Shown piece after piece: positions 5,787 to 40,725 of a stretch of 55,528 bases of DNA. The stretch lies in the NCBI GenBank assembly GCA_903869365.1, contig CAIPYV010000073.1:1-55528 (forward strand), read 5' to 3'. The DNA is from an uncultured Chlorobiaceae bacterium. GTDB lineage: Bacteria > Bacteroidota > Chlorobiia > Chlorobiales > Chlorobiaceae. The notes beneath the pieces are model-generated. The model worked only from the letters and a program-made list of their open reading frames with translations. It was not told the origin of the DNA and made no database searches. Numbering within the stretch: the first letter of the stretch is position 1; every line of letters starts with the position of its first letter. Position numbers and translations under genes: made by a program.

Positions 5787-7346
5787 ATGAAAAAGGACAA
5801 TTCCAATCCACCGGCCCCCCAGGAGTTACGGCTGCGTGCTGAGGAACGACTGAACAAAGGCGGGCTCACTCCTGATCCAACAACCTCTGCAGCAGAGTTG
5901 CAGCGATTACTGCATGAACTCTCTGTTCACCAGATTGAGCTTGAAATGCAGAATGAGCAGCTTCAGAATGCTTATGATGAAATCCAGCAGAAAAATAAGC
6001 GCTACAGCGATCTCTACGATTTTGCGCCGGCCGGCTATCTGACGCTCGCTCCGGACGGCACGATACTGGAAGCAAATCTTACCATGGCAAAGATGCTCTC
6101 TTGTGAGCGATCGCATCTCAAGGGATCCCGCTTTGGTCTCTTTATTGCCCAGCGAGATCTCGCGGGGTTTAACAGTATGGTACACAGAGTCTTCCAGAGC
6201 AGGACACTGGAACACTGTGAGATTATGATTGGGAGCATTTCCTTTCGCCTTGACGCCATTATCAGCGACAATCTGCAGGAGTGCCGCCTCACGCTCACTG
6301 ATATCAGCGATATCCTAAGAGCAGTAGACGCTCTGAAAAATAATGAAGCACAATACAGGTGTTTGTTTGAAGCCGCACAGGAAGGGATTTTGATACTCGA
6401 CTACAAAAGCGGCAAAATCGTTGATGCCAATCCCTATATAACTCATCTGATGGGCTTCTCTCTTGATGAAATCCTGGGGAAAAAGCTATGGGAGATCGGT
6501 TTTATTCTGGATAATGAGCTTGCTCAACAGGCATATCTGGAACTGCAAACAAAAAATTATATCCGTTATTCCGATTTACCTTTGCAACACAAAACCGGCA
6601 AGATCATTGAAGTTGAGTTTCTCAGCTACGTCTATAATGTCGGCGATAAAAAAGCGATACAGAGCAACATTCGCGATATTACTGATCAGAAAAAACTGGA
6701 AAAGACCATTTCGACCAGTCATCAGGAGACGATTCATTCACTGGCATCCATGGTTGAGATTCGGGATTCCTACACAGCAGGCCATCAGAAGCGCGTTGCT
6801 GAACTTTCGGTGGCTATTGCCCAAGAACTTCAACTCTCTGCAATCCAGATAGAGGGTTTGCAGCTCTGCTCGATTCTCCATGATATCGGAAAGTTTAACA
6901 TACCCGCAGACCTCTTGGTCAAGTCAACCCCATTGACAGAACTTGAAAAGGAGATATTACGCAATCACGCGCAGACGGGCTATGATGTCCTCAAGGGGAT
7001 TCACTTCCCGTGGCCGATAGCTCAAACGGTGTTGCAGCACCATGAACGCCTTGATGGAAGCGGTTACCCCAGCAGGCTCACAGGCGACAGCATCAGTGAT
7101 GAGGCAAAAATCATCGGAGTAGCCGATACCGTTGAGGCTATGACCGGCGCAAGACCTTACAGACCCGCGGTTGGTATCGATAAGGCACTCAGATATATTA
7201 TATTAGAAAGAGGCAGACTGTTTGACCCAGTTATTGTTGACACCTGCGTCAAGCTCTTTCATGAAAAGAATTTCAGCTTTTCGAGCAGAGAAGCTCCGGA
7301 AACCCTTATTACACATAAGGGTGGTGGGTATGGCGAAACGTTATAA
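5787..7346 (+). CDS. PAS-PAS-HD-GYP protein, probable c-di-GMP phosphodiesterase
   Basis: A 519-residue cytoplasmic signalling protein. Residues 1-75 carry the local family signature (LRAEERL, then HELSVHQIELEMQNEQLQ, a coiled helix). A PAS fold follows (YDFAPAGYLTLAPDG, about 77-175), then a second PAS (about 190-305) with LWEIGF. The C-terminal half is HD-GYP: HD at 365-366 in LHDIGK, then HHE at 418-420 and DGSGYP. All residues expected to bind the metal centre appear present, so breakdown of c-di-GMP is likely. It is the first gene of a plus-strand series of four signalling-related genes. No membrane segment is seen, and the PAS ligands are unknown. The ribosome site is weak. Confidence 0.88.
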   Translation: MKKDNSNPPAPQELRLRAEERLNKGGLTPDPTTSAAELQRLLHELSVHQIELEMQNEQLQNAYDEIQQKNKRYSDLYDFAPAGYLTLAPDGTILEANLTMAKMLSCERSHLKGSRFGLFIAQRDLAGFNSMVHRVFQSRTLEHCEIMIGSISFRLDAIISDNLQECRLTLTDISDILRAVDALKNNEAQYRCLFEAAQEGILILDYKSGKIVDANPYITHLMGFSLDEILGKKLWEIGFILDNELAQQAYLELQTKNYIRYSDLPLQHKTGKIIEVEFLSYVYNVGDKKAIQSNIRDITDQKKLEKTISTSHQETIHSLASMVEIRDSYTAGHQKRVAELSVAIAQELQLSAIQIEGLQLCSILHDIGKFNIPADLLVKSTPLTELEKEILRNHAQTGYDVLKGIHFPWPIAQTVLQHHERLDGSGYPSRLTGDSISDEAKIIGVADTVEAMTGARPYRPAVGIDKALRYIILERGRLFDPVIVDTCVKLFHEKNFSFSSREAPETLITHKGGGYGETL

Positions 7347-7378
7347 CTCCCTGTCAAACTCATGCCATACTGCAGAAT

Positions 7379-9295
7379 ATGTCAGAACATGAGAACGTAA
7401 CAATAAAGCACAGCTCAGATGACTCAAGCGATTTGCGGCAGCTTGTCAAAGATCTGTCAGATCTCAAGTTTGAGCTTGAAACACAGAAAGAGGAGCTTAT
7501 TCGATCGCGTGCGGAAACAAAGGAGAGCCTTGAACTCTATGAAAATCTTTACGACTATGCACCTGTAGGTTATCTGACACTGGCAAAGAAGAAGAATAAG
7601 ATACTCAGGGCAAACCTTACCGCGGCAAAAATCTTTGGTGTGGACCGCACGAACATTCTGGGCGATTTTTTTGATCGATTTATAGGAGTAGAATATCTGT
7701 CTGTTTTTTATGCTATGCTCGAAAGAGCTTTCACGAACCGAAAGACCGAGTACAGCGATTGTATACTCCTGAATGATAACCAAACGGAATGCTGGTTTCA
7801 TCTTGTAGCTCTTGTCAGTGATGAAGATGAGTGCCGCCTTACTCTGACCGATATCAACGAACACATTCAGGCATTAGCGAAACTGAAGGCAAACGAACTG
7901 CGCTACAGAAGCATGTTCGTAAATCATGCCGCTATTATGCTGATCTTCGACCCGGTTACAGGCAGCATTCTTGAAGCAAACCATTCCGCCATAGAGTTTT
8001 ATGGATGGTCGGCTGAAGAATTATACACTATGAAAACCTCGCAGATCAATACCCATTCTTTTGAAGAGATTAATAAAGCAACCTATCAATGTGTATCGGG
8101 AGAGAAAAACCACTTTATCACCCACCACCGCAGGGCGGACGGCTCAATCAGGGTTGTCGAGTCTTATACCAGCACAATTGAACTGATTGGTAAACCTCTT
8201 TTGTTCTCGATCATTCATGATATCACTGAGCGCATGGGCTACGAAATCGGCAATGCATTTCATCTCTCCATCCTCCAGATGCTTGATACCACATCCATAC
8301 AAGAGGTGCTGAAAAAGACCCTTGATGAAGCCGAAAAACTAACAGAAAGCTCCTTTGGGATATTTTATTTTTTGGATGAGGATGAGACATCACTCTCATT
8401 TCAGGCATGCTCCACCAATACCGAAAAAATTATAGATCGCTCGATTGAAAAAACAAAGGATTGCACTCTTGATGAAGCAGGCGTATGGGCCGATGCCGTT
8501 AGAGAACGCAAACAGCTCATTCTCAATGACGATGCCGATTTTAAAAGCCGTAAAAGGATATCCGAAGGCTATGGCGAAGTCCAGCGTGAAATAATTATTC
8601 CGATTATTGAGAATGAAAAAGTTATTGGCCTTATGGGAGTCGGCAATAAACCCTCCCTGTATAACCAGCTTGATCTTCACTGGTTAGAAGTTCTGGCCGG
8701 TTATATCCGGGATATTATTGCAAAAAAGGTAGGAAAGGGGATACAGGATATGCTCAAGAAACAGAACCTGATCATCGAACAACTTGCCCTGCACGACTCA
8801 CTGACCGGCCTGCCGAACCGCCGTCTCCTCTCTGAGCGGATATCCCTCTCACTCGCCCAGTGTAGACGGAACAAGAGTATGGCAGCGTTGATGATTTTTG
8901 ATCTGGACAAATTCAAGCCGGTCAACGACACCCTCGGTCATGCAATCGGCGATATACTGCTTCAGCAGGTGGCAGTTCGCACCCGCGAAACTCTGCTTCG
9001 AAGCAGTGATTCAATCGCCCGTCTCGGCGGTGATGAGTTTGTCGTCCTGCTGCCGCAGATTGCTGCAATATCGAATGCGGTAGCCATAGCAGAAAAGATC
9101 CAAAAAAAAATAAAAGAACCCTACACCATCGAAGGTCATACCATCGATATATCATGCAGTATCGGTATCGCAGTTTTCCCTGATCACGGCGAAAACGAAC
9201 TAACGCTGATGAAACATGCCGACGATGCCATGTACCATGCAAAACATCAAGGGAGGGACAAGGTAAAAGTATTTCAACCCTGCTATTGCGTGTAA
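7379..9295 (+). CDS. PAS-PAS-GAF-GGDEF diguanylate cyclase
   Basis: A 638-residue soluble c-di-GMP synthase candidate. It opens with the coiled signature LKFELETQKEELIRSR, followed by PAS1 (YDYAPVGYLTL, about 60-165), PAS2 (AIMLIFDPVTGSI with FYGW, about 180-290) and a GAF region (about 300-450) with GVWADAVR and MGVGNK. The GGDEF domain starts at HDSLTGLPNRR and has DLDKFKPVNDTLGH (metal and guanine contacts), intact GGDEF at 550-554 and the inhibitory-site RSSD at 541-544, five residues before it. The protein should be active and product-inhibited. It lies 32 bases after the HD-GYP gene, so synthesis and breakdown enzymes may be co-transcribed. Confidence 0.9.
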   Translation: MSEHENVTIKHSSDDSSDLRQLVKDLSDLKFELETQKEELIRSRAETKESLELYENLYDYAPVGYLTLAKKKNKILRANLTAAKIFGVDRTNILGDFFDRFIGVEYLSVFYAMLERAFTNRKTEYSDCILLNDNQTECWFHLVALVSDEDECRLTLTDINEHIQALAKLKANELRYRSMFVNHAAIMLIFDPVTGSILEANHSAIEFYGWSAEELYTMKTSQINTHSFEEINKATYQCVSGEKNHFITHHRRADGSIRVVESYTSTIELIGKPLLFSIIHDITERMGYEIGNAFHLSILQMLDTTSIQEVLKKTLDEAEKLTESSFGIFYFLDEDETSLSFQACSTNTEKIIDRSIEKTKDCTLDEAGVWADAVRERKQLILNDDADFKSRKRISEGYGEVQREIIIPIIENEKVIGLMGVGNKPSLYNQLDLHWLEVLAGYIRDIIAKKVGKGIQDMLKKQNLIIEQLALHDSLTGLPNRRLLSERISLSLAQCRRNKSMAALMIFDLDKFKPVNDTLGHAIGDILLQQVAVRTRETLLRSSDSIARLGGDEFVVLLPQIAAISNAVAIAEKIQKKIKEPYTIEGHTIDISCSIGIAVFPDHGENELTLMKHADDAMYHAKHQGRDKVKVFQPCYCV

Positions 9296-9374
9296 TAATA
9301 GTTAGATGTATTATAGATGTTTTTCTGGAAAAACTGATTCTACATGAAAATGGATATAAATCTGGAACCTAACC

Positions 9375-10703
9375 ATGAATCGCCATCTTTCAAAAATAGC
9401 GTTCGCATTGGCCGTCGTCATCATTCTGGGGACTGGAACCTTTATTTTTTTCAGTTTGCGCACACTCATCGAGAGTAACCGGAAAGTCAGCCATACGCTC
9501 AAAACGCTCAACAGCCTTGAACATCTCCTTGTGCACCTTACAGAGCTTGAAATAAGCGAGCGCGGATACGTCATTACAGGTGATGAACACTATCTCGAGC
9601 CCTATTTTTCCGATCTTTCACCTGATGGCATACAGCAGCAACTCATCGATCTTCGTCAATTGAGCGCAGACGATCCGGTACTGCAAAGCTCCCTCGAATC
9701 CCTTGTCCCGCTTGTTACAAAAAAAATCCTCTTTATGCAGCAAATCATTAATTTGAGAGTTGCCAGAGGGTTTGAGGCCGCCAAGGCATCGATAACGAGC
9801 AATATCGGTAATGAAATGACAAAAGCGAGCCTTAGTCTGATTGAAACGATAAAACAGCGGGAGACACGGATTCTTCAGCAAGCCTCCACTGACGCTTCAG
9901 CAAGCCTGCAATACTCGATATTCTCAATAGCCGCAGGCGGAGGAGTGGGCAGCCTTCTGCTCTTGCTTTCATTAATCCTGCTCAATCGTGAATTCGCTGC
10001 CCGGAGGCGGGCTGCCGAGGCCTTGCAGCAGCTCAACTGCGAACTCGATCAGCGCGTTGAAGAGCGCACGTCAGCTTTGCGCGATTACACCGAAAAACTA
10101 AGATTGAGTGAAGAGCATTTCCGTCTTCTGTTGGATGCTACAAAAGAATACGCCATGTTCATGCTCAACCCGCAGGGTGAGGTGCTCACCTGGAACAAAG
10201 ATGAGGAACAGTTGAAAGGCCTGGCAAATCGCCGTCTTCTCTCAGAGCGGATAAACATGATCATTGGCCTGTGTCGACGGAGCAAAACGATGGCCGCATT
10301 GATCATATTTGATCTGGATAAAACAAAACCAGATATCGATGCACTCGGCCATGGAATTGGTGATTTGCTGCTCCAGCAGGTATCCATCCGTACTCTCGGA
10401 ATTCTGCAGAGAAGCAGTGATACACTTGCCCGTCTTGGGGGTGATCAGTTTGTTGTGCTGGTTTCGCAGATTGGTGAAAAAGCAAATGCAGTCAGAATTG
10501 CTGAGAAAATCCTGAAAGCCTTACAAGAGCCTTTTGAGATTGAGGGTCATGCTCTCAGTATTACCTGTAGTATCGGTATAGCTGTTTTTCCGGATCATGG
10601 TGAAAATGAGCTGACTCTTATGAAAAATGCTGATGATGCCATGAATGCATCGAAGAGTCAAGGGGAAAATATCATTACGGTTTATGCGACTCCTGTTGTT
10701 TAA
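9375..10703 (+). CDS. CHASE3 membrane protein with degenerate GGDEF (GGDQF)
   Basis: A 442-residue membrane sensor. An N-terminal helix (about 7-30) and a second helix (about 180-203) flank a periplasmic CHASE3 domain with ERGYVITGDEHYLEPYF. After a coiled linker comes the start of a PAS domain that breaks off at EEQLKG and continues directly as LANRRLLSER of a GGDEF domain, so about 80 residues of PAS and the GGDEF opening (HDSLTG) are missing. The domain is changed at key places: KPVND has become KPDID, and GGDEF is GGDQF (355-359). RSSD (346-349) of the inhibitory site is intact. It is probably not a cyclase but could bind c-di-GMP. The remaining GGDEF closely matches the protein at 14423-17479. 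Confidence 0.85.
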   Translation: MNRHLSKIAFALAVVIILGTGTFIFFSLRTLIESNRKVSHTLKTLNSLEHLLVHLTELEISERGYVITGDEHYLEPYFSDLSPDGIQQQLIDLRQLSADDPVLQSSLESLVPLVTKKILFMQQIINLRVARGFEAAKASITSNIGNEMTKASLSLIETIKQRETRILQQASTDASASLQYSIFSIAAGGGVGSLLLLLSLILLNREFAARRRAAEALQQLNCELDQRVEERTSALRDYTEKLRLSEEHFRLLLDATKEYAMFMLNPQGEVLTWNKDEEQLKGLANRRLLSERINMIIGLCRRSKTMAALIIFDLDKTKPDIDALGHGIGDLLLQQVSIRTLGILQRSSDTLARLGGDQFVVLVSQIGEKANAVRIAEKILKALQEPFEIEGHALSITCSIGIAVFPDHGENELTLMKNADDAMNASKSQGENIITVYATPVV

Positions 10704-10784
10704 CGATAATTCCCTGTAATGAACAACAATAAAATAGGTTACATATTATTTTGAGTGTAATCGATTTGAAAATGCCTCTTATTC

Positions 10785-12779
10785 ATGAAAAAGCTCCTGT
10801 TATCCGTTACTTCAGTTTTTCTCCTCTGCACATCGCTAAGGGCTGAGATTTCAACCACTCCCTTTGAGAACCTTCATCTAACAGCAGAGCAGGGCATAGT
10901 TCAGGCTCAATACAATTACGGGGTGATCAGGAGTGACAATTTTTCGGAAAGAAATAACGATATCGAATCGATAAAAACTTTTCGGCTGATGGCGGCGGCA
11001 GGAATTGCACTGGGTCAGAACAATCTTGGAGAAGCTTATGCTAATGGCAAGGGTGTTCCCAAAAACAATCAGGAGGCTGTTAAATGGTACCGTCTGGCCG
11101 CTCAGCATGGATTCGCAAAGGCTCAATACAATCTTGGGAGAATGTACGAGCGTGGTCAGGGAGTCCCGCAAAATTTTGATATAGCAGTACAATGGTACAG
11201 GCTTGCAGCAGCGCAGACGGATATTGCAATTCGCCCGAATTATGCGATCATTTCCAACACCCGTGATGGCATCACCCTGAGTACCGGTGATATCCTGAAA
11301 GACTATCAGCGGGCTGCATCAAAGGGTATTGCAGTTGCTCAGAACAACCTCGGAGCCCTCTATGAAATGGGAGAGGGAGTTAGCAAAAACTATACGGAGG
11401 CCGTTCGCTGGTATCGTCTGGCTGCTGCTCAGCAAATGGCACAGGCTCAGTATAACCTTGGCTCGATGTACGAACGTGGCCTTGGTGTCACCCAGAATGA
11501 TACGTTAGCTGTTCAATGGTACCGAGTTGCAGCAGCACAGAATCTTCCAATTGCTCAGTACAGCCTCGGATGGATGTACTCCATGGGTCAGGGCATCCCG
11601 CAAAGCGATGCTCAAGCTCTAAAATGGTACAGTAAAGCTGCTCAGCAGGGTTTTGGAAGAGCCCAGTTCAATTTAGGCGTATTATATCAGGATGGCCGAG
11701 GGGTTCAACGTAACGTTGTCACCGCCGCACAATGGTATCGTCTGGCCGCTGAACAGGGACGTATGAAGCCTTTCTATGATTTCAATGCCGGATACTACAA
11801 CATGCCAGCACTGGCTTATGATCAAAACGATAAAGAGGTGTTAAAGTGGTATTATGATGCCACAGTGAAAGGTATTCCACAAGCTCAATTCAGCATTGCT
11901 GAAAGATTATATCAGGGCCTTAACATGAAACAGGACTATGTTATGGCTGCCAGGTACTATCGTAAGGCTGCTGAAGGTGGGTATTCACTGGCCCAGTCCA
12001 ATCTTGGATTGATGTATTACCAGGGCGAAGGAGCTAAACAAAATTATACAGAGGCTCTGAAATGGTTTCGTCTGGCGGCAGCTCAAGGATTAGCCGTTGG
12101 TCATTACAATCTCGGATGGATGTACTATCAAGGCCAGGGTGTTGCCCAAAGTTATACAGAAGCCGTAAAGCACTATCAGATAGCTGCAGAAAAGGGCCTC
12201 TCACAGGCTCAGTTTAATCTCGCCAACGCCTGTTATAACGGAGAAGGAGTTCCAAAAAACTATACAGAAGCAGCGAAATGGTACCGGATTGCGGCTCAAA
12301 GTGGCCTTGCAATGAGTCAGTTCAACTACGGGGCCATGCTCTACCAGGGACAGGGAGTCACAAAAAACAGTGCTGAAGCGGTGAAATGGTACCGGTCTGC
12401 AGCCTTACTGAAGTTTGCAGCCGCAGAATACAACCTTGGATGGATGTACGCCAACGGACAGGGAGTGCCGAAAAACAATACAGAAGCACTGAAATGGTAC
12501 CGACTCGCAGCTGATCAGGGTAATGCGCATGCCCAGTGCCATCTCGGATGGATGTACGCCAATGGTCTTGGTATCCAGAAAAACAGTGCCGAAGCCGTGA
12601 AATGGTATCGCTTTTCAGCACTGCAAGGCAACCCGAACGCACAGTATTACTTGGCCGGGATGACTGAAAAAGGAGAAGGAGTCATATCGAACAAAACAGA
12701 AGCCAGGCAATGGTATCAATTAGCCGCCGAACAGGGTCTCCCCAAAGCCGGAGAAGCACTGAAGCGTCTGAAACCATGA
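10785..12779 (+). CDS. Exported Sel1-like repeat protein
   Basis: A 664-residue protein with a signal peptide (MKKLLLSVTSVFLLCTSLRA). About fourteen clear 36-residue Sel1-like repeats follow, of the pattern AQYNLGxMYxxGxGVxxNxxEAxKWYRxAA, with two degenerate units near residues 145-180 and 325-360. Such alpha-solenoids act as scaffolds for protein complexes; there is no catalytic domain. It is the last gene of the plus-strand series after two sensors and a cyclase, and it converges with the next HD-GYP gene with only two bases between them. A periplasmic scaffold working with the CHASE3 sensor is possible but is inference. Repeats are similar in DNA as well, so repeat number may vary between strains. 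Confidence 0.88.
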   Translation: MKKLLLSVTSVFLLCTSLRAEISTTPFENLHLTAEQGIVQAQYNYGVIRSDNFSERNNDIESIKTFRLMAAAGIALGQNNLGEAYANGKGVPKNNQEAVKWYRLAAQHGFAKAQYNLGRMYERGQGVPQNFDIAVQWYRLAAAQTDIAIRPNYAIISNTRDGITLSTGDILKDYQRAASKGIAVAQNNLGALYEMGEGVSKNYTEAVRWYRLAAAQQMAQAQYNLGSMYERGLGVTQNDTLAVQWYRVAAAQNLPIAQYSLGWMYSMGQGIPQSDAQALKWYSKAAQQGFGRAQFNLGVLYQDGRGVQRNVVTAAQWYRLAAEQGRMKPFYDFNAGYYNMPALAYDQNDKEVLKWYYDATVKGIPQAQFSIAERLYQGLNMKQDYVMAARYYRKAAEGGYSLAQSNLGLMYYQGEGAKQNYTEALKWFRLAAAQGLAVGHYNLGWMYYQGQGVAQSYTEAVKHYQIAAEKGLSQAQFNLANACYNGEGVPKNYTEAAKWYRIAAQSGLAMSQFNYGAMLYQGQGVTKNSAEAVKWYRSAALLKFAAAEYNLGWMYANGQGVPKNNTEALKWYRLAADQGNAHAQCHLGWMYANGLGIQKNSAEAVKWYRFSALQGNPNAQYYLAGMTEKGEGVISNKTEARQWYQLAAEQGLPKAGEALKRLKP

Positions 12780-12781
12780 GA

Positions 12782-14377
12782 TCAGACCGGGATCTGATAA
12801 CCCTTTTCCCGAAACAGGCGGAGCATGGCATCAACGACTTCCGGGTCAAATTGCTGCACCCGATGTCTCTCAATTTCATGAAGGGCTTCTTCGATGCCTA
12901 ATGAGGGGCGGTAAGGGCGATGTGAGGCCATGGATTCGAGCACATCAGCCACGGCAAGTATGCGGGCTTCAAGAAGTGTTGCCTCCCCTTTCAGGCCCTG
13001 CGGATAGCCGCTGCCATCCATACGCTCGTGGTGTTCCCGAATGATTCGTGCAATCGGCAGAGGGAACTCGACATCCTGGAGGATTTCATAGCCGTGTTCA
13101 GCATGAGTCTTGACGAGCTCAAACTCGATAGCCGATAATAAGCCCGGTTTGGAAAGTATCTCGGCAGGAATGCTGATTTTGCCAATATCGTGCACTAATC
13201 CGATGAGCTGCAGAGTATTGCACTTCTCTTCGCTCCACCCCATTTCCCGAGCTATAGCCGCCGAGATCATGCCAACGCGCCGCTCATGACCTGCGGTGTA
13301 GGGATCATGTGCTTCCACGACATTTGCTACGGCCTGCAGGGTGCTGCGCATTGCGTTTTCCAACTGTGTCACATACCCCTTTATCTTTTGTTCTGCAGCT
13401 TTACGTTCGCTGATGTCTCGACCGGTGACGACAGAACCCACAATAAGACCATTGTTGTTGCGTATAGGTGCATAGTTATAACTTCCAAACCATGTTTGAC
13501 CGGTATCCTTTCGGAGCAGTCTGAATTCGACCCCTTTAGCGGTTTCACCTCGCAGCGCCCTCGGAACAGCCCAATCTTCCAAAGGAACAAGCTCTCCCGT
13601 AATCAGATATACTTCAAGAAACTTTGGATATTCATCAAGCGTCTTTGGGCACTCATCTTTGTTCCTGAACTTGTGAAAGGTTGCGAAAGCGTCATTATAG
13701 TGGATGAAGTCTCCCGTGGTATCAGAGATAAAGACGGCATCGCCCATACTGGTGAGAGCTGCTTCCAGTTTCACTCTCCCTTCTACAAGAAGTTGTTCTG
13801 CCTGTTTTCGTTCGGTAATATCAAAAAGAATAATCCGGCATACATCAAAGGGATCACTTATGGCGGCATCAATACGGACGATACGAAGAGAGTGATCAGA
13901 GTGATCCGTGGCTGGCTGGGAAACAGAAGCCAAAAGCCTCACTTCGCAGTTCCCTGGCACTTTTTTAGAGAACACTGTTTCGAGCAGGGCATCAACTATC
14001 CGATAGTCCTCGGGAAGAACAAATTGTTTAAAGTGCATGCAAAGTAAACGGGATCGATCAACTCCAAGCAGTTTAGTAGCCGTAAGGTTTGCTTGCCGGA
14101 TTTTACTCTCCCTGCCCAAAGTCAAATACCCAACGGGCGCAAAGTCATAGAGCTGAGTGTATTTGCCGAGACTTTCTTCCAGCCCGATTCTGCTGCAAAC
14201 CAATTCGTCCTGCTGCATTTCAAGTTCAATCTGGTGAACCGATAGCTCATGCACTACGCGCTGAAACTCTGCTGGTGAAATTGGAACATCAGGAACAACT
14301 CCGCTTTTTTTGAGGCACTCTTCAGCCCGCCGTCGCAGCTCTGATCGCTCCTCCGCAAATCCCCTGTCATTATTCAT
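12782..14377 (-). CDS. PAS-PAS-HD-GYP protein, probable c-di-GMP phosphodiesterase
   Basis: A 531-residue soluble protein: family signature LRRRAEECLKKSG with HELSVHQIELEMQQDELV (about 15-65), PAS1 (YDFAPVGYLTLGRES, about 75-190), PAS2 (about 200-320, with GSVVTGRDISERK) and HD-GYP. The catalytic pair is HD at 396-397 in VHDIGK, with HHE starting at 449 and DGSGYP after it. All metal-site residues are seen. Its HD-GYP domain is nearly the same as that of the kinase-receiver-HD-GYP protein at 37594-40725 (shared VANVVEAHDPYTAGHERR), showing recent domain exchange or duplication. It is the distal gene of the minus-strand signalling set, and its end almost touches that of the Sel1 gene. Confidence 0.88.
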   Translation of the reverse strand: MNNDRGFAEERSELRRRAEECLKKSGVVPDVPISPAEFQRVVHELSVHQIELEMQQDELVCSRIGLEESLGKYTQLYDFAPVGYLTLGRESKIRQANLTATKLLGVDRSRLLCMHFKQFVLPEDYRIVDALLETVFSKKVPGNCEVRLLASVSQPATDHSDHSLRIVRIDAAISDPFDVCRIILFDITERKQAEQLLVEGRVKLEAALTSMGDAVFISDTTGDFIHYNDAFATFHKFRNKDECPKTLDEYPKFLEVYLITGELVPLEDWAVPRALRGETAKGVEFRLLRKDTGQTWFGSYNYAPIRNNNGLIVGSVVTGRDISERKAAEQKIKGYVTQLENAMRSTLQAVANVVEAHDPYTAGHERRVGMISAAIAREMGWSEEKCNTLQLIGLVHDIGKISIPAEILSKPGLLSAIEFELVKTHAEHGYEILQDVEFPLPIARIIREHHERMDGSGYPQGLKGEATLLEARILAVADVLESMASHRPYRPSLGIEEALHEIERHRVQQFDPEVVDAMLRLFREKGYQIPV

Positions 14378-14422
14378 AAAACCCGGCTCCCGTTTTTAAG
14401 GAAACAACAAACTCATCACTCG

Positions 14423-17400
14423 CTACTCAGCACCATGTTTCGATACAGTAATCCGGTTTCGCCCCTGACTTTTCGACAGATACATCGCATCATCAGCATT
14501 TTTCATAAGAGTCAGTTCACTCATCCCGTGATCAGGAAAAACAGCGATACCGATACTGCACGAAATATTGATAGCATGGCCCTCAATCTCGAACGGCATT
14601 TCGATGGCTTTCAGGATTTTCTCAGCAATGGCAACCGCATTTGCTGCCGCATCAATCTGAGGCAGCAGCACAACAAACTCATCTCCACCAAGACGAGCCA
14701 GAGTATCGCTGCTTCTCTTCAGAATTCCGAGAGTACGGCTTGCCACCTGTTGGAGGAGCAGATCACCAATGCCATGACCGAGCGTATCGTTGACAGGTTT
14801 GAATTTATCCAGATCAAATATCATCAGTGCGGCCATTGTTCCGCTCCGTTGACACAGAGCAAAGGTCAATTTTATCTTCTCTGAGAGAAGCCTGCGATTT
14901 GCCAGGCCAGTCAAAGAGTCATGCATTGCCAGATGTTCAATGGCATATTTCTGGGCCTGAAGGAGTTTGCGTTCCTCCTCACCCATCTTTTTAGCAACAA
15001 TATCCCAGGCAATATCCGCCACCATACTCACCCATTTTATATCATACTCATCATACACCGTTCGTTTGCTCCCGACACCGAGAATCGCAACCACCTTATC
15101 ACCGCGCAATACAGGGACAGCCATGTAACGCACCACAGCATCCTCACCCTCCGGCATCCCATTGCTATCATTAACGGCAGAATAACCATTATGAATTACA
15201 GCTCTCCGATCCCTTGCTGCATCAGACCATACTGCTGCACTGTCCAACGCATAGTGACCACCCTTTCCCATAGCCGTGCACATAATCTTCTTGGTGTTGG
15301 TCGACCACGCCTGAAGCGAGAGGGTCATCTGATCTTCAGCCATGAAATGAAAGAAGCCGATCACACTTTCGGTCAGCTCTTCGGCTTTATCGATGGTCAA
15401 CTGCAGCAGCTCCTCTATCGAATGACTCTCTACCATCTCAAGAAGAGCGATGTGCAGGTCATTGGTAATTTCGTAGTGCTTTCGTTCCGTGACATCATGA
15501 ACAATGGTATAAAGTGTCGATCTGCCCTCCGTCACAATCGTCCGGCTATAGACCTCAACATCACGGATGCTTCCGTCCGCTCTGCGATGGCGGAATAAAA
15601 AGAACGTATTTCCTCCCGTTTTGGTTTGCTCAATAGCACGCTCTACCTCTTCAGGAGTCAAGGTATTGATATCCTGAATACGCTTCTTGCGGATTTCATC
15701 GATCGTCCACCCATAAAACTCAAGAGCAGACTTATTGGCCTCAAGAATAAAACCTGTATCAGGATCAATAATCAGCATAATGGCTGAATGCCCTGTAAAC
15801 ATATCCTTGAAATGCTTTTCGCTCTGTATAAGCGATGCTTCGGTTTGCTTTTGCAGCTCTGCCAGATACAGTGTATCCAAGGCAAACGACACATCAACAC
15901 CGATTTCTTGAAGAAGCCTGATCTCCTCTTCATCGCTAAACATATTGATATCGTCAGAATAGAGATTGAGCAATGCTACAATAACTCCGTCTTGTCGAAT
16001 AGGCACCGAAGCTGCTGAATAAAAACCATCGGTGAGAGCCATAGCACGCCACTGCTGCATCGCCGGGTCTGTCTGAATGTTGTTGCAGGTAACGACCTTT
16101 CCTGTTGCCACAGCCGAACCGATAATGTCATTGGTAAAAGGAGCTTCTTTGATATCGATCGATGTAAAGGGAAGGGAGGCCTCTACCTCACCGTACTCAA
16201 CTGCCGGTGTAACGATACCGCTGACAGGGTCAATAACACCGATCCAGGCCAGCCCGAATTTGCCGGACTCCACTGCAACACGGCAAATGCTCGGAAACAA
16301 TTGCTTTTTCTCTTTAACGCGCACAAGAGTTTCATTAATCTGCGAAAGCGTTGCATACAATCTGTTGAGGTGCTCAATTCTCAACTCGTTTTGTTTCCGG
16401 ACGGTGATATCGCGTGTGACCTTGGCAAAGCCTGTCAATTGGCGATCACCATCGTATATGGAGGTCATCACAACATCCGCAAAAAAACGCGTACCATCCT
16501 TGCGCACCCGCCAGCCCTCAGATTCAGCTTGTCCTGTCTCAATCGTCGTTTTCAGAAGAAGAGATGGCTTGCCGGCAGCAATATCCTCCTTCGTAAAGAA
16601 CCGGGAAAAGTGTTGACCGATAATCTCTTCAGCCTTGTAGCCTTTCAAGAGTTCGGCGCCTTTGTTCCAGCTTATGATGGTCCCGTTCCTGTCGAGCATA
16701 AAGATGGCGTAGTCCTTAACGCTGTCCACCATCAGACGAAAACCCTCTTCGCTCCTGCGCAGCTCTTTAACGCGCTCTTCAATAAGCTCATTCAGCTCAT
16801 TATTGAGTTGCTGCAGTGCTTTCTCGGCCACCTTCCGTATGCCGGTTTCCCTGTTGACCACAAAAAGAGAAAACAACAAGAGAGAAATACCCGAACCGAA
16901 CCCCATGATAATGGCAAAAATCGTATCCTGCAAATTTGCAGATGCATCATCGTAACGTTGCTGAAGAAGCATCTCCTCGTTGTTGTGCATCTCCAGCAGT
17001 TCACGACGGACTTGAACCATCATCTCCCGGCCGATATCGGTTGCTATCAACCTCTTCGCAGCTTCAAACCCCGCACTGCTTCTTGTCTCAATGACTTTTT
17101 TCATAAAGTCGAGTTTCTCCCTGACAAGAGGCTCTAATCGATCGAGTTGTTGTTGTTGCCGAGGATTGTCCAAAGTTAATCGACGCAGATCCTTAAGATG
17201 CGGAACAATGCCGTTTGTTGATGATATGGCGGCAAAATAAGGTTCAAGAAACACCTCCCGGCCCATAATGACATAACCACGAGGGCCAGTTTCGGCATCA
17301 GTAACTAAAGAGAGCGTTTCGTCAAGTTTGTGCTCTGTTTTAAGCGAGCGCTGAATCTGGCGTGTACTTTCACTGAAGGCCTGCAGATGGATGCCCGTAT

Positions 17401-17479
17401 AGATGCTGGAGCCGAAAATCAAGGCTGTCGCTAACACAAATGCAAGGAAAGCAATGTTCTTTATCTTGGTTATAGGCAT
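14423..17479 (-). CDS. CHASE3-PAS-GAF-PAS-GAF-GGDEF diguanylate cyclase
   Basis: A 1018-residue membrane-bound cyclase. N-terminal helix (about 7-28), periplasmic CHASE3 with PRGYVIMGREVFLEPYF, second helix (about 188-210), coiled linker, PAS (FMLDRNGTIISWNKGAELLKG), GAF (about 380-540), PAS with AIMLIIDPDTGFI and FYGW, GAF with AAVWSDAARDRR, then GGDEF. The cyclase has HDSLTGLANRR, DLDKFKPVNDTLGH, intact GGDEF at 931-935 and RSSD at 922-925, so it should be active with product inhibition. It is the likely full-length relative from which the degenerate protein at 9375-10703 differs by internal loss. The gene ends in HGAE-stop within a heptamer-like stretch (GGTGCTGAGTAG). Confidence 0.9.
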   Translation of the reverse strand: MPITKIKNIAFLAFVLATALIFGSSIYTGIHLQAFSESTRQIQRSLKTEHKLDETLSLVTDAETGPRGYVIMGREVFLEPYFAAISSTNGIVPHLKDLRRLTLDNPRQQQQLDRLEPLVREKLDFMKKVIETRSSAGFEAAKRLIATDIGREMMVQVRRELLEMHNNEEMLLQQRYDDASANLQDTIFAIIMGFGSGISLLLFSLFVVNRETGIRKVAEKALQQLNNELNELIEERVKELRRSEEGFRLMVDSVKDYAIFMLDRNGTIISWNKGAELLKGYKAEEIIGQHFSRFFTKEDIAAGKPSLLLKTTIETGQAESEGWRVRKDGTRFFADVVMTSIYDGDRQLTGFAKVTRDITVRKQNELRIEHLNRLYATLSQINETLVRVKEKKQLFPSICRVAVESGKFGLAWIGVIDPVSGIVTPAVEYGEVEASLPFTSIDIKEAPFTNDIIGSAVATGKVVTCNNIQTDPAMQQWRAMALTDGFYSAASVPIRQDGVIVALLNLYSDDINMFSDEEEIRLLQEIGVDVSFALDTLYLAELQKQTEASLIQSEKHFKDMFTGHSAIMLIIDPDTGFILEANKSALEFYGWTIDEIRKKRIQDINTLTPEEVERAIEQTKTGGNTFFLFRHRRADGSIRDVEVYSRTIVTEGRSTLYTIVHDVTERKHYEITNDLHIALLEMVESHSIEELLQLTIDKAEELTESVIGFFHFMAEDQMTLSLQAWSTNTKKIMCTAMGKGGHYALDSAAVWSDAARDRRAVIHNGYSAVNDSNGMPEGEDAVVRYMAVPVLRGDKVVAILGVGSKRTVYDEYDIKWVSMVADIAWDIVAKKMGEEERKLLQAQKYAIEHLAMHDSLTGLANRRLLSEKIKLTFALCQRSGTMAALMIFDLDKFKPVNDTLGHGIGDLLLQQVASRTLGILKRSSDTLARLGGDEFVVLLPQIDAAANAVAIAEKILKAIEMPFEIEGHAINISCSIGIAVFPDHGMSELTLMKNADDAMYLSKSQGRNRITVSKHGAE

Positions 17480-17524
17480 AACATTGTGACCAGTTACTAC
17501 TGTTTTTTTCTCTCGACACCTTGT

Positions 17525-18955
17525 TTAAAGGGATTCCCTGACATTTTCAACAGTATAGGTTTTCTCACCTTTCTGGTCAGAAAACTTGAATTTCTTTTCC
17601 CTGAAAAGCCTCAGGCAGACGGCAACAATGTTTGGGTCAAATAACCGATCACTCCCCTCGATGATATTTGCCAAGGCAATATCCAGGCCTACCGCCGGAC
17701 GGTAAGGTCTCGAGCTGGTAAGAGCTTCAACCGTATCGGCTACCGAGATGATTCTTGCCTCATCACAGATACTGTCCCCTTTCAGTCCGTTAGGATAGCC
17801 GCTGCCATCAAGCCGCTCATGATGCTGCAATACCGTCTGAGCCACTGGCCAGGGAAAATGAATGAGTTTGAGAATTTTGAAACTCTCATGAGCGTGGGTG
17901 CGTAACATCTCTCGTTCAAGAGAACTCAACGTCGTGGGTTTGGTCAAAATCTCGGCAGGAATGGAATACTTGCCGATATCGTGCAGCATGGAGCTCATGC
18001 GTAACCCGTTTAAATTAATTTGCTGGTAATTCAGCTCTCTGGCAATAGCGATCGAGAGCTCTGAAACCCGCTCCTGGTGGCCGGCAGTATAGGGATCTCT
18101 TGTCTCCACCATAGCGACCAACGCGTTGACAAGATCATCCATGCTTAATGCAAGAACATTTCGGTATTGCGCGATCTCTCTTTTGCTTGAAATATCACGA
18201 ATGTCACATTGAATGACTTTTTCGCCACTCACCTCATAGACATTACTGATAAATTCGACATCGATAGGCTGACCGTATTTTTTTCGCAGAGGGAGATTTT
18301 CATAGCGGATAAAATTTTTCACTTTCACTTCTTGATAAGCCTGAAGGGCAACCTCCTTGTCAAGCGTGAAACCGATTTCCCAAAGCTCCTTGCCGATAAG
18401 CTCTTGAGCTGAAAACCCAAGCAGATTAATGATAAAAGGATTGACGTCGACGATTTTACCGCTCTTGAAGTCAAGAAAAATGATCCCGTTCTGCGCATTC
18501 TCAAAAAGCTTCTGGTAGCGAAACTCAGATTGTTTGAGCGTTTGAGCCAGATCTACTCTCTGGGAGATATCACGAATGTTGCACTGAATGACTTTATCAG
18601 CTCCCACGTCATAAACATTGCTGATAAACTCAACGGAAATGATGTGGTTGTTTTTATGTTGGAGTGGCAAATTTTCATAACGGATATAGCTTTTTGACTG
18701 TAGTTCCATATAAGCATTTTTCGCCAACTCCTTGTCAACAATAAATCCAATCTCCCAAAGCTCTTTGCCACTAACTTCATTGAGTCCAAAACCAAGAAGA
18801 TTGAGGATATAGGGATTGGCATCAAGGATTTTGCCGCTCTTGAAGTCAAGAATCAGGATACCATCCTGCGCACTCTCAAAAAGCCTGCGGTACCGTAACT
18901 CGGATAATTTGATGGTCGCATCAGCTGATGGCTTCCACTCATCTTTTAAACTCAT
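17525..18955 (-). CDS. Tandem-PAS HD-GYP protein, probable c-di-GMP phosphodiesterase
   Basis: A 476-residue soluble protein. Two PAS domains (about 20-135 and 140-260) are near copies of each other: each has the LFExAQxGIxxLDFKSGKI pattern, KELWEIGF and RYENLPL, followed by a VIQCNIRDIS/VIQCDIRDIS end. The HD-GYP half follows, with HD at 325-326 in LHDIGK, then HHERLDGSGYP. The metal-site residues are present. The PAS type (LWEIGF) matches PAS2 of the protein at 5787-7346, and the HD-GYP parts of these two are also closer to each other than to the other HD-GYP proteins. It lacks the N-terminal HELSVHQ signature. It lies 45 bases upstream of the CHASE3 cyclase on the same strand and is probably co-transcribed with it. 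Confidence 0.87.
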   Translation of the reverse strand: MSLKDEWKPSADATIKLSELRYRRLFESAQDGILILDFKSGKILDANPYILNLLGFGLNEVSGKELWEIGFIVDKELAKNAYMELQSKSYIRYENLPLQHKNNHIISVEFISNVYDVGADKVIQCNIRDISQRVDLAQTLKQSEFRYQKLFENAQNGIIFLDFKSGKIVDVNPFIINLLGFSAQELIGKELWEIGFTLDKEVALQAYQEVKVKNFIRYENLPLRKKYGQPIDVEFISNVYEVSGEKVIQCDIRDISSKREIAQYRNVLALSMDDLVNALVAMVETRDPYTAGHQERVSELSIAIARELNYQQINLNGLRMSSMLHDIGKYSIPAEILTKPTTLSSLEREMLRTHAHESFKILKLIHFPWPVAQTVLQHHERLDGSGYPNGLKGDSICDEARIISVADTVEALTSSRPYRPAVGLDIALANIIEGSDRLFDPNIVAVCLRLFREKKFKFSDQKGEKTYTVENVRESL

Positions 18956-35007: not shown

Positions 35008-35758
35008 TACTATGACTATGCACCAATCGGGTATTTGACTCTTGGTCGTGACAGCACCATCCTGCAAGCGAACCTGACCGCCACAAAAATCCTGGGCGTA
35101 GAGCGCTCGCGATGTCATGTTTGAGAAGCATTCCGCCATAATGCTGATAATCGACCCCGATTCAGGCAATATCATCAACGCCAATCAGGCAGCAGCTGAC
35201 TTTTATGGATGGCCAGTTGATGAACTCCGCACAATGCACATACAGACCATCACCACTTCCACTCCCGAAGCGGTAATGGATGAAATGAAAAAAGCAAGAT
35301 TATCCAGAAAAAACCACTTTTTATTTCAACATCACAAGGCTGACGGTTCCATACACGATGTGGAAGTTTTCAGCACTACCATTGATATCGAAGGGAAAGA
35401 CCGTCTCTATTCAATCATTCACGACATCACCCAGCGCAAGCAAGTCGAACAGGCATTGCAAATCAGCGAAAGAAAATTTCGCTCCATTACCGAGCAAATG
35501 ACTGAAATGGTATTTGTTACCAACTCAATCGGATCATTAACCTATCTATCTCCAGCCGCTGAAAACCTTTTCGGCTATCTCCCCCAAGAGATGACTGGCC
35601 ATTCATTCACCGAATACATGATTGAAGAGGAGATTTCGCCAGCCCTTGCACTTTTCCACGAAACCCTCTTGCAGCAGTTGAATACCCGGAAAGTGGAAGT
35701 AACCTTTCACAGAAAGAATGACACTTCCTTTATCGGTGAAGTTCATCTTCATCGATAA
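35008..35758 (+). pseudogene. Decayed 5' part of a PAS hybrid-kinase gene
   Basis: Two PAS remnants in different frames. From 35008 one frame reads [20 protein letters not shown] and on to GVERSR, clearly the first PAS of the local family, but it stops at 35107-35109 region and lacks its N-terminal signature and second half. From 35117 another frame reads [17 protein letters not shown], a PAS with FYGW, then part of another PAS ending GEVHLHR-stop at 35758. The following gene picks up in a third frame in the middle of a PAS fold. At least two deletions or frameshifts separate these pieces, so the original long sensor is broken. The segment 35117-35758 (213 codons) could still be translated. 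Confidence 0.75.
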
Positions 35759-37204: not shown

Positions 37205-37420
37205 ATGGCTGGAGAACAAGCAAAAAAATTTGTTCATCAACTGAAATCTGATCATGAGTTACGGTATCGTTTAGAAGCATTTATTGCTAAAGAAGGTTAT
37301 TCATTCAAGTTGCATGAAATTGTCATTGCGGAATGTGAAGATCGAAAAGAGCGCTGTACAAATTCCGGTTATAAACGGCGACACCCTGATCTCTGCGGTT
37401 ATGAGCATTGGGCTGGTTGA
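37205..37420 (+). CDS. Nif11-like small protein, probably frameshifted
   Basis: The 71-codon frame begins MAGEQAKKFVHQLKSDHELR and continues with EAFIAKEGYSF, the pattern of Nif11 domains (also used as leader peptides of ribosomally made modified peptides). GAGGTG lies four bases before the ATG. After residue about 47 the frame turns unlike a Nif11 protein (CTNSGYKRRHPDLCGYEHWAG). Removing one A from the run at 37345-37348 would join it to the other frame, IPVINGDTLISAVMSIGLVD, ending at 37499, and give a 97-residue protein. No modification enzyme for such peptides is seen nearby, so the role is unknown. Confidence 0.65.
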   Translation: MAGEQAKKFVHQLKSDHELRYRLEAFIAKEGYSFKLHEIVIAECEDRKERCTNSGYKRRHPDLCGYEHWAG

Positions 37421-37593: not shown

Positions 37594-40500
37594 ATGCTTT
37601 GTAGCGGATTTATTTTTTTACTGCACATCAATCCAGATTACTACAGATGTAACGTGCCGAAAAAAAAATGCCACACCACCTTAATCAGTTTATCAGATTT
37701 GAGGGCTCTCGCTGAAAAGCGTCACCAAGTCCTGCAACTGAAAAGACCGGATTCTTCCTCTTCACCTGAGGATATTCTACGGATTATCCATGAACTGGAG
37801 GTTCACCAGATCGAACTTGAACTTCAGCAGGAAGAACTGATTCGGTCGAGAGAAGAGCTTTCAAACTCGAAAGCAGAGCAGGAGGATAGCCTGAAGCGCG
37901 TTACCGAGCTTTATGATTTTGCCCCGTTGGGCTATCTAACGCTTACACGGAACAGTAAGATCGTTGAGGCAAACCTGACAGCAACCAGAATACTTGGCAT
38001 TAATCGCTCGGAGTTGCGTGGTAATTATTTAACAAACCTCTTTATCCCTGAAGACCGTCAGGTAATCCATGGATTGCTTGAAAAAGTGTTTACCAAAAAA
38101 CAGCATGGATACGGTGAAGCCACTCTTATCCCTCACGAAACGCCTCTTTCCGGTACCCAGCAATCTGTTGCAGCCCAAACCTTTCGGCTCGATGCTTTAC
38201 ACAGTGACTCTCCTCATGAATGCAGGGTTATCATAACGGATATCACTGATCAAAAACTCTCTGAAAATGCTCTCAAACAGAGCCAGTACAAGTTCAGGAT
38301 GCTTTTTGAAGGCCACTCCTCCATCATGCTGGTCATTGATGAAACAGGCAACATCATTGATGCCAACCCTGCTGCAGCTGCTTTTTACGGGTGGCCGATT
38401 GAAAAACTCTGTACGATGCATCTTGATACCATCACAACGAGATCACATGAAAGGGTACTGAGTGATCTTGTAAAATTCAGAACAACGAACCAAAACAAAT
38501 TCTCAACGCTTCATCGTAAAGCGGATGGTTCATTACGTGATGTCGAGGTCATAAAAAATACGATTACGATAGGAAGCAATGTCGTTTTCTATTGCATCAT
38601 CAACGATATCACCGAACGCAAAAAGGCTGAGTCTCAACTTAAAAAGCTGAGTGTGGCTCTCCAGCAAAGCCCCACGGTTGTTTTCATAACCGACCCCGAT
38701 GGCAATATTGAATACGTCAATCCAGCGTTTACAGCGCACACCGGGTATGCAGCTGAAGAGGTTTTAGGGAAAAATCCCCGCATACTTAAGTCCGGCCTGA
38801 TGCCGAAAGCGTTCTATGAAGATCTCTGGCAAACAATTCTTTCGGGCAGGATTTGGCGTGGTGAAATGCACAACAAAAAGAAAAACGGTGAACTCTTCTG
38901 GGAACGAGCCGTTATTTCAGCCATGCTGAATAATGAAGGTGTGGTAACCAATTTTGTGGCGGTAAAAGAAGACATTACAGCAGAAAAAAAACTCTGGAAT
39001 GAGTTGACAGCAGCCAAAGATCATGCGGAAGAGAGTGACCGCCTGAAATCAGCATTTCTGGCCAACATCAGCCATGAAATACGCACCCCGATGAATGGCA
39101 TTCTCGGCTTTTCAGAACTCCTGAAAGAACCTCATCTTTCCGGCGAGGAGCAGGCAGAGTTTATCGGCCTTATTCAGCAAAGCGGCAACAGGATGCTCAA
39201 TCTCATCAATAAACTGATCGATATTTCCCGTTATGACGCCGGCGAAACAACATTCGAGATTACCAAAACCCCCGTAAACACCCTCTTGCATGAACTCTAT
39301 GCTTTTTTCAAGCCTGAAATCCAGAAGAAAGAACTCTGTTTGAACTGTACCTGTGAACTTCCCGATGAAGACAGCATCATAGAAACAGACAGTGAAAAGC
39401 TGACCAAGATATTGACAACCCTTCTCCATAATGCCCTGACATTCACCAGAAAGGGAACCATTGATTTCGGGTATACCAGAGTTGGTTCAACCCTTGAGTT
39501 TTATGTTCTTGATACGGGCATTGGTGTTCCTGCTGCTATGCAACAGAAAATTTTCGAGCGCTTCCGGCAGGCTGATAACTCATTATCCCGCAACCATGAG
39601 GGTTCAGGCCTCGGATTAACGATTGCAAAGGCCTATGTCGAAATGCTTGGCGGTGCGTTACGGGTTGAGTCCGAAGAAGGAAAAGGGAGCAAATTCATTT
39701 TTACCCTCCCTTACGGGCAGGCCCCCGTGACAGCGCTTCTCAACGCATCGAAGGATCAATCCCATACCGAGCACTCACTACTCCGCACTCCGCACCCAGC
39801 ACTCACTATTCTTATAGCAGAAGATGACGAAATGTGCCGATTGTTGCTTCAAAAAAACCTGAAAGGCGAAAACATTGCAATTCTCTATGCTGTTAATGGA
39901 CAGGAAGCCGTAGAACAGGTAAAATGCCACCCTGAGATCACCCTCGTCCTCATGGACATCAAGATGCCGGTAATGAACGGATATGAAGCAACACGACTCA
40001 TCAAACAGCTGCGGCCCGATCTGCCTGTTATCGCCCAGTCAGCCTTTATTTCAAAAGAAGACCAAGAAAAAGCAAGAGAGGCAGGGTGCGACAGCTTCCT
40101 CACCAAACCCATCTACAAAAGCGAGTTGCTCGAAGTAATACAGTTGGAAGCCGCTATGCAAAGCACGATCCAGGCGGTAGCCAACGTCGTGGAAGCACAT
40201 GATCCCTATACTGCAGGTCATGAACGACGCGTTGGCATCATCGCGGCAGATATAGCACGGGAAATGGGGTGGAGCGAAGAGAAGTGCCGCATTCAGCAGC
40301 TCATCGGATTAGTGCACGACATCGGCAAAATAAGCATACCTGCCGAGATACTTTCCAAACCGGGCCGATTGTCAGCAATAGAGTTTGAACTGATCAAGAC
40401 CCACGCAGAACAAGGCTATCAAATCCTCAAGGATGTCGATTTCCCTCTCCCGATTGCAGAAATCATCCGAGAACACCACGAGCGTATGGACGGCAGCGGT

Positions 40501-40725
40501 TATCCGCGGGGCCTGAAAAGAGTGGAAACACTTCTTGAATCCCGCTTACTTGCCGTAGCCGATGTGCTTGAAGCCATGGCTTCACATCGCCCTTACCGAG
40601 CCGCATTCGGCATCGAAGAAACCCTTCATGAAATTGAGAGCCATCGGGCGCAGCACTTCGACCCGGAAGTGGTTGATGCCATGCTCCGACTGTTTCGCGA
40701 AAAAGGCTATCAGCTCCCGGCCTGA
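37594..40725 (+). CDS. PAS-rich histidine kinase-receiver-HD-GYP fusion
   Basis: A protein of up to 1043 residues that joins a full phosphorelay to a c-di-GMP phosphodiesterase. N-terminal signature HELEVHQIELELQQEELIRS, PAS1 (YDFAPLGYLTL), PAS2 with FYGW, PAS3 (VVFITDPDGNIEYVN), kinase core with His494 in ISHEIRTPMNG and GSGLGLT, a linker containing heptamer sequence, receiver with Asp788 in LVLMDIKMP and TKP, then HD-GYP with HD at 908-909 (VHDIGK) and HHERMDGSGYP. All catalytic residues are visible. It resembles an RpfC-RpfG pair in one chain. The start is uncertain: ATG 37594 and GTG 37654 both lack clear ribosome sites. Confidence 0.9.
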   Translation: MLCSGFIFLLHINPDYYRCNVPKKKCHTTLISLSDLRALAEKRHQVLQLKRPDSSSSPEDILRIIHELEVHQIELELQQEELIRSREELSNSKAEQEDSLKRVTELYDFAPLGYLTLTRNSKIVEANLTATRILGINRSELRGNYLTNLFIPEDRQVIHGLLEKVFTKKQHGYGEATLIPHETPLSGTQQSVAAQTFRLDALHSDSPHECRVIITDITDQKLSENALKQSQYKFRMLFEGHSSIMLVIDETGNIIDANPAAAAFYGWPIEKLCTMHLDTITTRSHERVLSDLVKFRTTNQNKFSTLHRKADGSLRDVEVIKNTITIGSNVVFYCIINDITERKKAESQLKKLSVALQQSPTVVFITDPDGNIEYVNPAFTAHTGYAAEEVLGKNPRILKSGLMPKAFYEDLWQTILSGRIWRGEMHNKKKNGELFWERAVISAMLNNEGVVTNFVAVKEDITAEKKLWNELTAAKDHAEESDRLKSAFLANISHEIRTPMNGILGFSELLKEPHLSGEEQAEFIGLIQQSGNRMLNLINKLIDISRYDAGETTFEITKTPVNTLLHELYAFFKPEIQKKELCLNCTCELPDEDSIIETDSEKLTKILTTLLHNALTFTRKGTIDFGYTRVGSTLEFYVLDTGIGVPAAMQQKIFERFRQADNSLSRNHEGSGLGLTIAKAYVEMLGGALRVESEEGKGSKFIFTLPYGQAPVTALLNASKDQSHTEHSLLRTPHPALTILIAEDDEMCRLLLQKNLKGENIAILYAVNGQEAVEQVKCHPEITLVLMDIKMPVMNGYEATRLIKQLRPDLPVIAQSAFISKEDQEKAREAGCDSFLTKPIYKSELLEVIQLEAAMQSTIQAVANVVEAHDPYTAGHERRVGIIAADIAREMGWSEEKCRIQQLIGLVHDIGKISIPAEILSKPGRLSAIEFELIKTHAEQGYQILKDVDFPLPIAEIIREHHERMDGSGYPRGLKRVETLLESRLLAVADVLEAMASHRPYRAAFGIEETLHEIESHRAQHFDPEVVDAMLRLFREKGYQLPA
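39770..39807 (+). repeat. Heptamer-related repeat in the ATPase-receiver linker
   Basis: Degenerate copies of AGCACTC (GCACTCACTACTCCGCACTC, then CGCACCCAGCACTCACTATT) encode the linker HSLLRTPHPALTI between kinase and receiver domains of the fusion protein. The paralogue at 35718-37055 has the same kind of repeat at the same place (36658-36684). Confidence 0.6.

Follow-up and report, generated by a model that had tools for sequence, protein, structure and literature searches.

A long open reading frame in a Chlorobium genome raises the question of whether a single polypeptide could hold the whole path from a sensed cue to the breakdown of c-di-GMP. The window (the whole stretch of DNA analyzed, 55,528 nt) corresponds to contig 73 of a genome of the genus Chlorobium, 2.93 Mb in size. 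On its + strand, 1043 codons run uninterrupted from 37594 to 40725, and the original prediction, made from the letters alone, had placed a kinase, a receiver and an HD-GYP domain behind three PAS domains in one chain. The Pfam search agrees with this, and every match far exceeds its curated cut-off: PAS_9 in three stretches (E 1e-35), HisKA at residues 485-550 (E 1.2e-21), HATPase_c at 599-707 (E 4.9e-23), Response_reg at 739-849 (E 5e-23) and HD_5 at 861-1026 (E 1.4e-38). The predicted length of 1043 residues holds for the open reading frame but probably not for its product. Orthologous chains begin with MPKK..VSLSDLR, which aligns with VPKKK..ISLSDLR at GTG 37654 in our sequence, so that this GTG is probably the true start and the protein 1023 aa long. 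Residue numbers are those of the 1043-residue frame throughout. The features are as follows:

12785-14377, - strand: unfused PAS-PAS-HD-GYP gene with the same cassette, its HD-GYP domain 84% identical to that of the fusion; used for the splice-point comparison
35102 to about 37055, + strand: paralogous hybrid kinase (PAS-HK-REC) just upstream, frame broken near 35703-35755
37594-40725, + strand: fused open reading frame, PASx3-HisKA-HATPase-REC-HD-GYP, likely start GTG 37654
37684-37893, + strand: N-terminal helical segment SDLRALAEKR..HELEVHQIELE, common to many PAS proteins of the genus
37894-38268, + strand: PAS 1 (about residues 101-225), the sensor domain under least constraint
38278-38628, + strand: PAS 2 (about residues 229-345)
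38644-38997, + strand: PAS 3 (about residues 351-468), whose sequence resembles PAS domains of PDB 3ewk and 2gj3 (nitrogen fixation regulatory protein)
39046-39243, + strand: HisKA/DHp with phospho-acceptor H494
39388-39714, + strand: HATPase_c (CA lobe), from Pfam
39400-39456, + strand: N-box with unusual T609 and T616, metal-site Asn N613 retained
39808-40140, + strand: receiver domain with E743, D744, D788, S816, F835 and K838
40117-40200, + strand: spliced helix, receiver alpha5 plus first HD-GYP helix (residues 842-869, junction 'QLE'), from AlphaFold2
40174-40671, + strand: HD-GYP (HD_5) with D870, H876, H908, D909, K912, H937, H961, H962, D990 and R999; Y872

H494, D788, H908-D909 and HHERMDGSGYP (from 961) all lie where the original prediction had put them. 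With HisKA carrying H494, HATPase_c and a C-terminal receiver carrying D788 (plus K838), the chain has the defining features of a hybrid histidine kinase.

We then compared the chain across a family sample of 86 genomes. Counting the present one, six fused copies were found in four genomes of the genus Chlorobium: G061 and G075 each encode a fused copy of 1041 aa and a second copy that is split by contig ends (G061) or cut by a contig end (G075), and G033 has one fused copy, which is frameshifted within HD-GYP. In the latter (L028 4247-7697), about 130 extra residues appear between PAS 2 and PAS 3. At the fusion point the sequence is ...KSELLEVI-QLEAAMQSTLQAVANVVEAHD, give or take one or two substitutions, and wherever the junction is readable it is the same. 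The original prediction had named a misassembly of two genes as the event that would undo it; because full-length orthologues in independent assemblies share this junction, misassembly and chance are ruled out. The same HD-GYP cassette is also found behind PAS/GAF domains, where the junction reads ...GYVK-QLE.AMQSTLQAVANVVEAHD, and a single splice point is located at 'QLE'. In a tree of 11 rows, the HK-REC parts of the fused proteins are monophyletic (support 100/99). The tree of HD-GYP domains alone is star-like and unresolved, with fused and unfused rows intermixed, and therefore does not date the fusion; a later exchange of the cassette would be neither supported nor excluded by it. A single fusion event would be the simplest reading. 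Outside the genus, the betaproteobacterium Sheuella amnicola (L053 2481-5588) encodes an HD-GYP domain 61% identical to the Chlorobium cassette, possibly a case of gene transfer.

Purifying selection acts on all parts of the fused protein, as estimated by dN/dS (Nei-Gojobori) from comparisons of this gene with each of the other fused copies. Constraint is strongest on the receiver (about 0.07-0.10), followed by PAS 2 and PAS 3 (0.13-0.18) and HD-GYP (0.16-0.21), with higher values for the N-terminus including PAS 1 (0.3-0.5).

A search for the same domain order in other genomes had been proposed as a check, and the order was found in the three other genomes of the genus Chlorobium but, among the matches listed, in none of about 800 further genomes sampled. 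Among the matches listed for the 86 family genomes, no HK+REC+HD-GYP chain occurs elsewhere. A REC-HD-GYP profile run against 296 Bacteroidota genomes (many of the family included) listed no HK-REC-HD-GYP chain outside Chlorobium; the matches listed there have frames of up to 621 aa only, and the three longest (621, 585 and 514 aa) contain no kinase domain in the same frame. From the phylum of G317, a Sideroxydans MAG, 398 genomes were searched with an HK-REC-HD-GYP profile (best 3 candidates scored per genome), and from those of G318 and G321 90 genomes apiece (15 candidates per genome); no single-chain match was listed. These searches scored 3-16 candidates per genome and took the best rows, so distant fused chains could escape them. 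A spanning match in G436 crosses a stop codon and represents two genes. Five plasmid matches over nearly the whole query likewise proved to be two adjacent or overlapping genes each. The expectation that other organisms usually divide these functions is borne out by neighboring HK-REC and REC-HD-GYP genes on plasmids of Pseudoalteromonas, Photobacterium, Aquabacterium and Agrobacterium, and in G436. In the open-access literature searched, an HK-REC-HD-GYP chain is undescribed. Judged by these comparisons, the gene fusion is real, conserved and rare.

RpfC/RpfG, the familiar split arrangement, pairs a hybrid kinase containing both receiver and HPt with a REC-HD-GYP regulator as a second protein. 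The same chemical steps are expected in the fusion as in RpfC/RpfG and in other pairs of a kinase with a REC-HD-GYP protein, but in those pairs the HD-GYP protein carries an additional receiver of its own, whereas the fusion has a single receiver descended from a hybrid kinase. Because of this one receiver and its origin, and because the Pfam scan gave no HPt, we rejected the idea that the chain is RpfC joined to RpfG. Its PAS-HisKA-HATPase-REC core is shared with the unfused hybrid histidine kinases of the genus (60-70% identity with many), from which it differs by running linker-free into HD-GYP and, in most fused copies, by an altered N-box. Bacteroides, which belongs to the same GTDB phylum as the host of the fusion, offers another comparison. 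Its HTCS regulators combine sensor kinase, receiver and DNA-binding output in one polypeptide (PMC11253607); they too are one chain, but with a DNA-binding output and a sensor in the membrane. In SgmT of Myxococcus (GAF-HK-REC-GGDEF), the GGDEF domain is a receptor for c-di-GMP and sequesters the kinase (PMC3509222); GSU3350 of Geobacter (HK-GGDEF) was noted in 2005 (PMC1183210). Both join a kinase chain to a c-di-GMP-related domain as the fusion does, but this domain is GGDEF, not HD-GYP, and that of SgmT is catalytically degenerate (A-site), whereas the HD-GYP site of the fusion is intact by sequence. Given these precedents a single chain is no new idea; HD-GYP as the output at this place is, as far as we searched, a new combination.

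The output domain has the features of an HD-GYP phosphodiesterase: the HD_5 match, H876, H908, D909, H937, H961, H962, D990, K912 and DGSGYP. The residues to which the original prediction had assigned c-di-GMP hydrolysis (HD 908-909, HHE, DGSGYP) are thus present, and hydrolysis itself is predicted from them. PmGH (4mcw) aligns with the domain nearly end to end (E 4.6e-38), and the metal ligands are kept. Taking the PmGH ligand list from PMC4159591, with the numbering offset derived from the DPETQNH motif, we aligned H189, H221, D222 and H250 to H876, H908, D909 and H937; H276, H277 and D305 to H961, H962 and D990; and K225, D183 and R314 to K912, D870 and R999. Seven of the eight metal ligands are present in addition to the equivalents of D183, K225 and R314. 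The position of E185 is taken by Y872 (in DPYTAGH), and the E/D-T-G trinuclear signature of the PmGH subgroup is absent. Y872 at this position assigns the domain to the Y/F subfamily, for which a binuclear site is expected (PMC4159591). The best PDB match, 3'3'-cGAMP phosphodiesterase 3 (5z7c; nearly end to end, E 1.4e-39), also has Tyr where PmGH has Glu, so Tyr is compatible with activity. The predicted substrate may be either c-di-GMP or cGAMP.

Whether the receiver can drive this domain is a real question, given that the receiver of the hybrid kinase CckA undergoes no allosteric change on activation (PMC9981736). The fused receiver groups with those of hybrid kinases (the intermediary class) and not with those of stand-alone REC-HD-GYP regulators. 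E743, D744, D788, S816, F835 and K838 are retained in every aligned fused copy. S816 and F835 match the coupling switch described for output receivers, S/T plus an aromatic beta5 residue (PMC9981736), but most unfused hybrid receivers also have S/T and F/Y at these places, so the pair does not discriminate an output-type receiver. In an AlphaFold2 model of residues 472-1043 built from 52 sequences (mean pLDDT 88, pTM 0.51), the 'QLE' splice leads to receiver alpha5 and the first HD-GYP helix being modeled as a single helix (model residues 371-398, i.e. 842-869). The continuous helix is predicted with moderate to good confidence, and the relative placement of the domains is uncertain in view of the pTM and of block pLDDT values of 72-86 across the junction.

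On balance we favor, with somewhat better than even confidence, the reading that a hybrid kinase with its own receiver was spliced onto HD-GYP to give a one-chain, phosphorylation-controlled c-di-GMP phosphodiesterase. The PAS domains would respond to a cue in the cytoplasm, perhaps a redox signal given the likeness of PAS 3 to PAS domains of the NifL type. The kinase would set phosphorylation of D788 via H494, the switch S816/F835 would alter the geometry of the continuous helix that leads from alpha5 into the HD-GYP dimer, and the altered geometry would change c-di-GMP hydrolysis. Of this, the domains, residues, conserved architecture, single splice point and purifying selection on all domains come from computation, and we infer kinase activity, phosphotransfer, dimerization, phosphodiesterase activity and the sign of control. 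In favor of the reading are also the modeled helix, the HTCS regulators as single chains with another output, and a genome with GGDEF enzymes in which HD-GYP is the one recognizable c-di-GMP hydrolase family. The N-box changes, the somewhat weaker constraint on the CA lobe, the intermediary class of the receiver, the low pTM and a genome in which no PilZ effector was found count against it.

The N-box bears on a different reading, in which the kinase lobe is weak or dead, one or more sibling kinases phosphorylate D788 in trans, and the chain acts as a hub whose own DHp would work as a docking site or as a phosphatase. Of 82 unfused homologues, 81 have Lys at the position of T616 and 74 have Asn at that of T609. 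The original prediction therefore goes too far in counting every catalytic position for autophosphorylation as present, although the chain retains H494, E495, N613, the Asp of G1 and the Gly of G2. At the two positions Thr and Ser also occur in three other copies, the two of G075 and the second of G061, so that Lys and Asn are replaced in four of six fused copies; the first G061 copy and G033 keep both. The basic residue just past the N-box usually forms a salt bridge with the nucleotide phosphates. In VanS kinases, where it is missing, ATP binding is weak and a basic residue one turn upstream may make up for the loss (PMC10017428); the fused protein has H612 at that place. Constraint, strongest on the receiver, also appears somewhat relaxed on the CA lobe: the median dN/dS of this lobe is 0.28 in fused pairs (n = 10) versus 0.19 in unfused pairs (n = 48), a difference that is only a hint because the pairs share sequences and are not independent, and that leaves the CA lobe far below 1. 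From the N-box changes and this somewhat weaker constraint, the kinase may be weak.

The sibling kinases are the other half of this argument. Compared with 15 sibling hybrid kinases that the genome encodes, the DHp of the fused protein shows 65-87% identity (62-69% over whole HK-REC), so near-identical that no private kinase-side interface is visible; in receiver alpha1 only two residues are characteristic of the fused clade (C-R for S-T). The suggestion that a self-contained path would be insulated from cross-talk is thus not supported; tethering may favor the own receiver, and from the sequences cross-talk seems as plausible as insulation. With H494, E495, N613 and the G1 and G2 residues retained, two copies keeping N and K, a CA lobe still constrained, and compensation of the VanS kind conceivable, we regard the hub reading as rather unlikely. 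Distinctly unlikely in our view is that HD-GYP serves mainly as a sensor, with c-di-GMP binding or turnover feeding back on the kinase or localizing it and the phosphoryl group leaving to an HPt or regulator; SgmT, whose C-terminal GGDEF sequesters its kinase (PMC3509222), and the hybrid-kinase lineage of the receiver speak for it, but HD-GYP, unlike the SgmT GGDEF with its degenerate A-site, has an intact active site and evolves under purifying selection. That HD-GYP is an ordinary constitutive phosphodiesterase with a passenger or decaying upstream part would fit the cassettes of about 80-89% identity that carry quite different N-termini in many relatives, as well as the frameshift in the G033 copy; we consider it highly improbable, as PAS 2, PAS 3 and the receiver are constrained as much as HD-GYP or more. 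A broader scenario, which we hold unlikely, is that in one lineage of Chlorobium a single splice turned an intermediary receiver into an output receiver and the kinase lobe drifted, so that siblings would write on the receiver and many inputs would converge on c-di-GMP breakdown.

The locus lends itself as a compact, naturally occurring test case for two questions: whether fusion to an enzyme lets the receiver of a hybrid kinase, regarded as a passive relay in at least one studied case (CckA), control that enzyme, and how a chain surrounded by many near-identical sibling kinases escapes cross-talk or exploits it. A further use is as an entry into c-di-GMP signaling in green sulfur bacteria, on which the open-access literature searched, including a 2005 census, is sparse. 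No EAL domain was found in the genome, which leaves HD-GYP as its sole recognizable family of c-di-GMP hydrolases, and no PilZ effector was found either. GGDEF enzymes, the makers of c-di-GMP, are present. This 55.5 kb contig carries all four complete HD-GYP domains of the genome (within 5787-18955 and at 37594-40725) and three of its five GGDEF domains.

The upstream paralogue is 69% identical to the fusion over HK-REC and consists of two overlapping frames, owing to either a frameshift mutation or a sequencing error. Between the two kinase genes lies an open reading frame of 71 codons with a Nif11 domain (37205-37420, E 3.7e-5). Elsewhere on the contig, a CHASE3-GGDEF protein (9375-10703) has GGDQF in place of GGDEF and may be catalytically altered, and the protein at 10785-12779 contains many 36-residue (108-nt) repeats of Sel1-like appearance. 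In the HD-GYP protein at 17525-18955, a PAS segment is tandemly duplicated (18275-18912; 375-nt spacing, 71% identity). A further contig of the genome (G000:C120, 3817-3948) carries an HD-GYP C-terminus fragment covering 44 profile positions in an open frame of 66 codons, perhaps a remnant.
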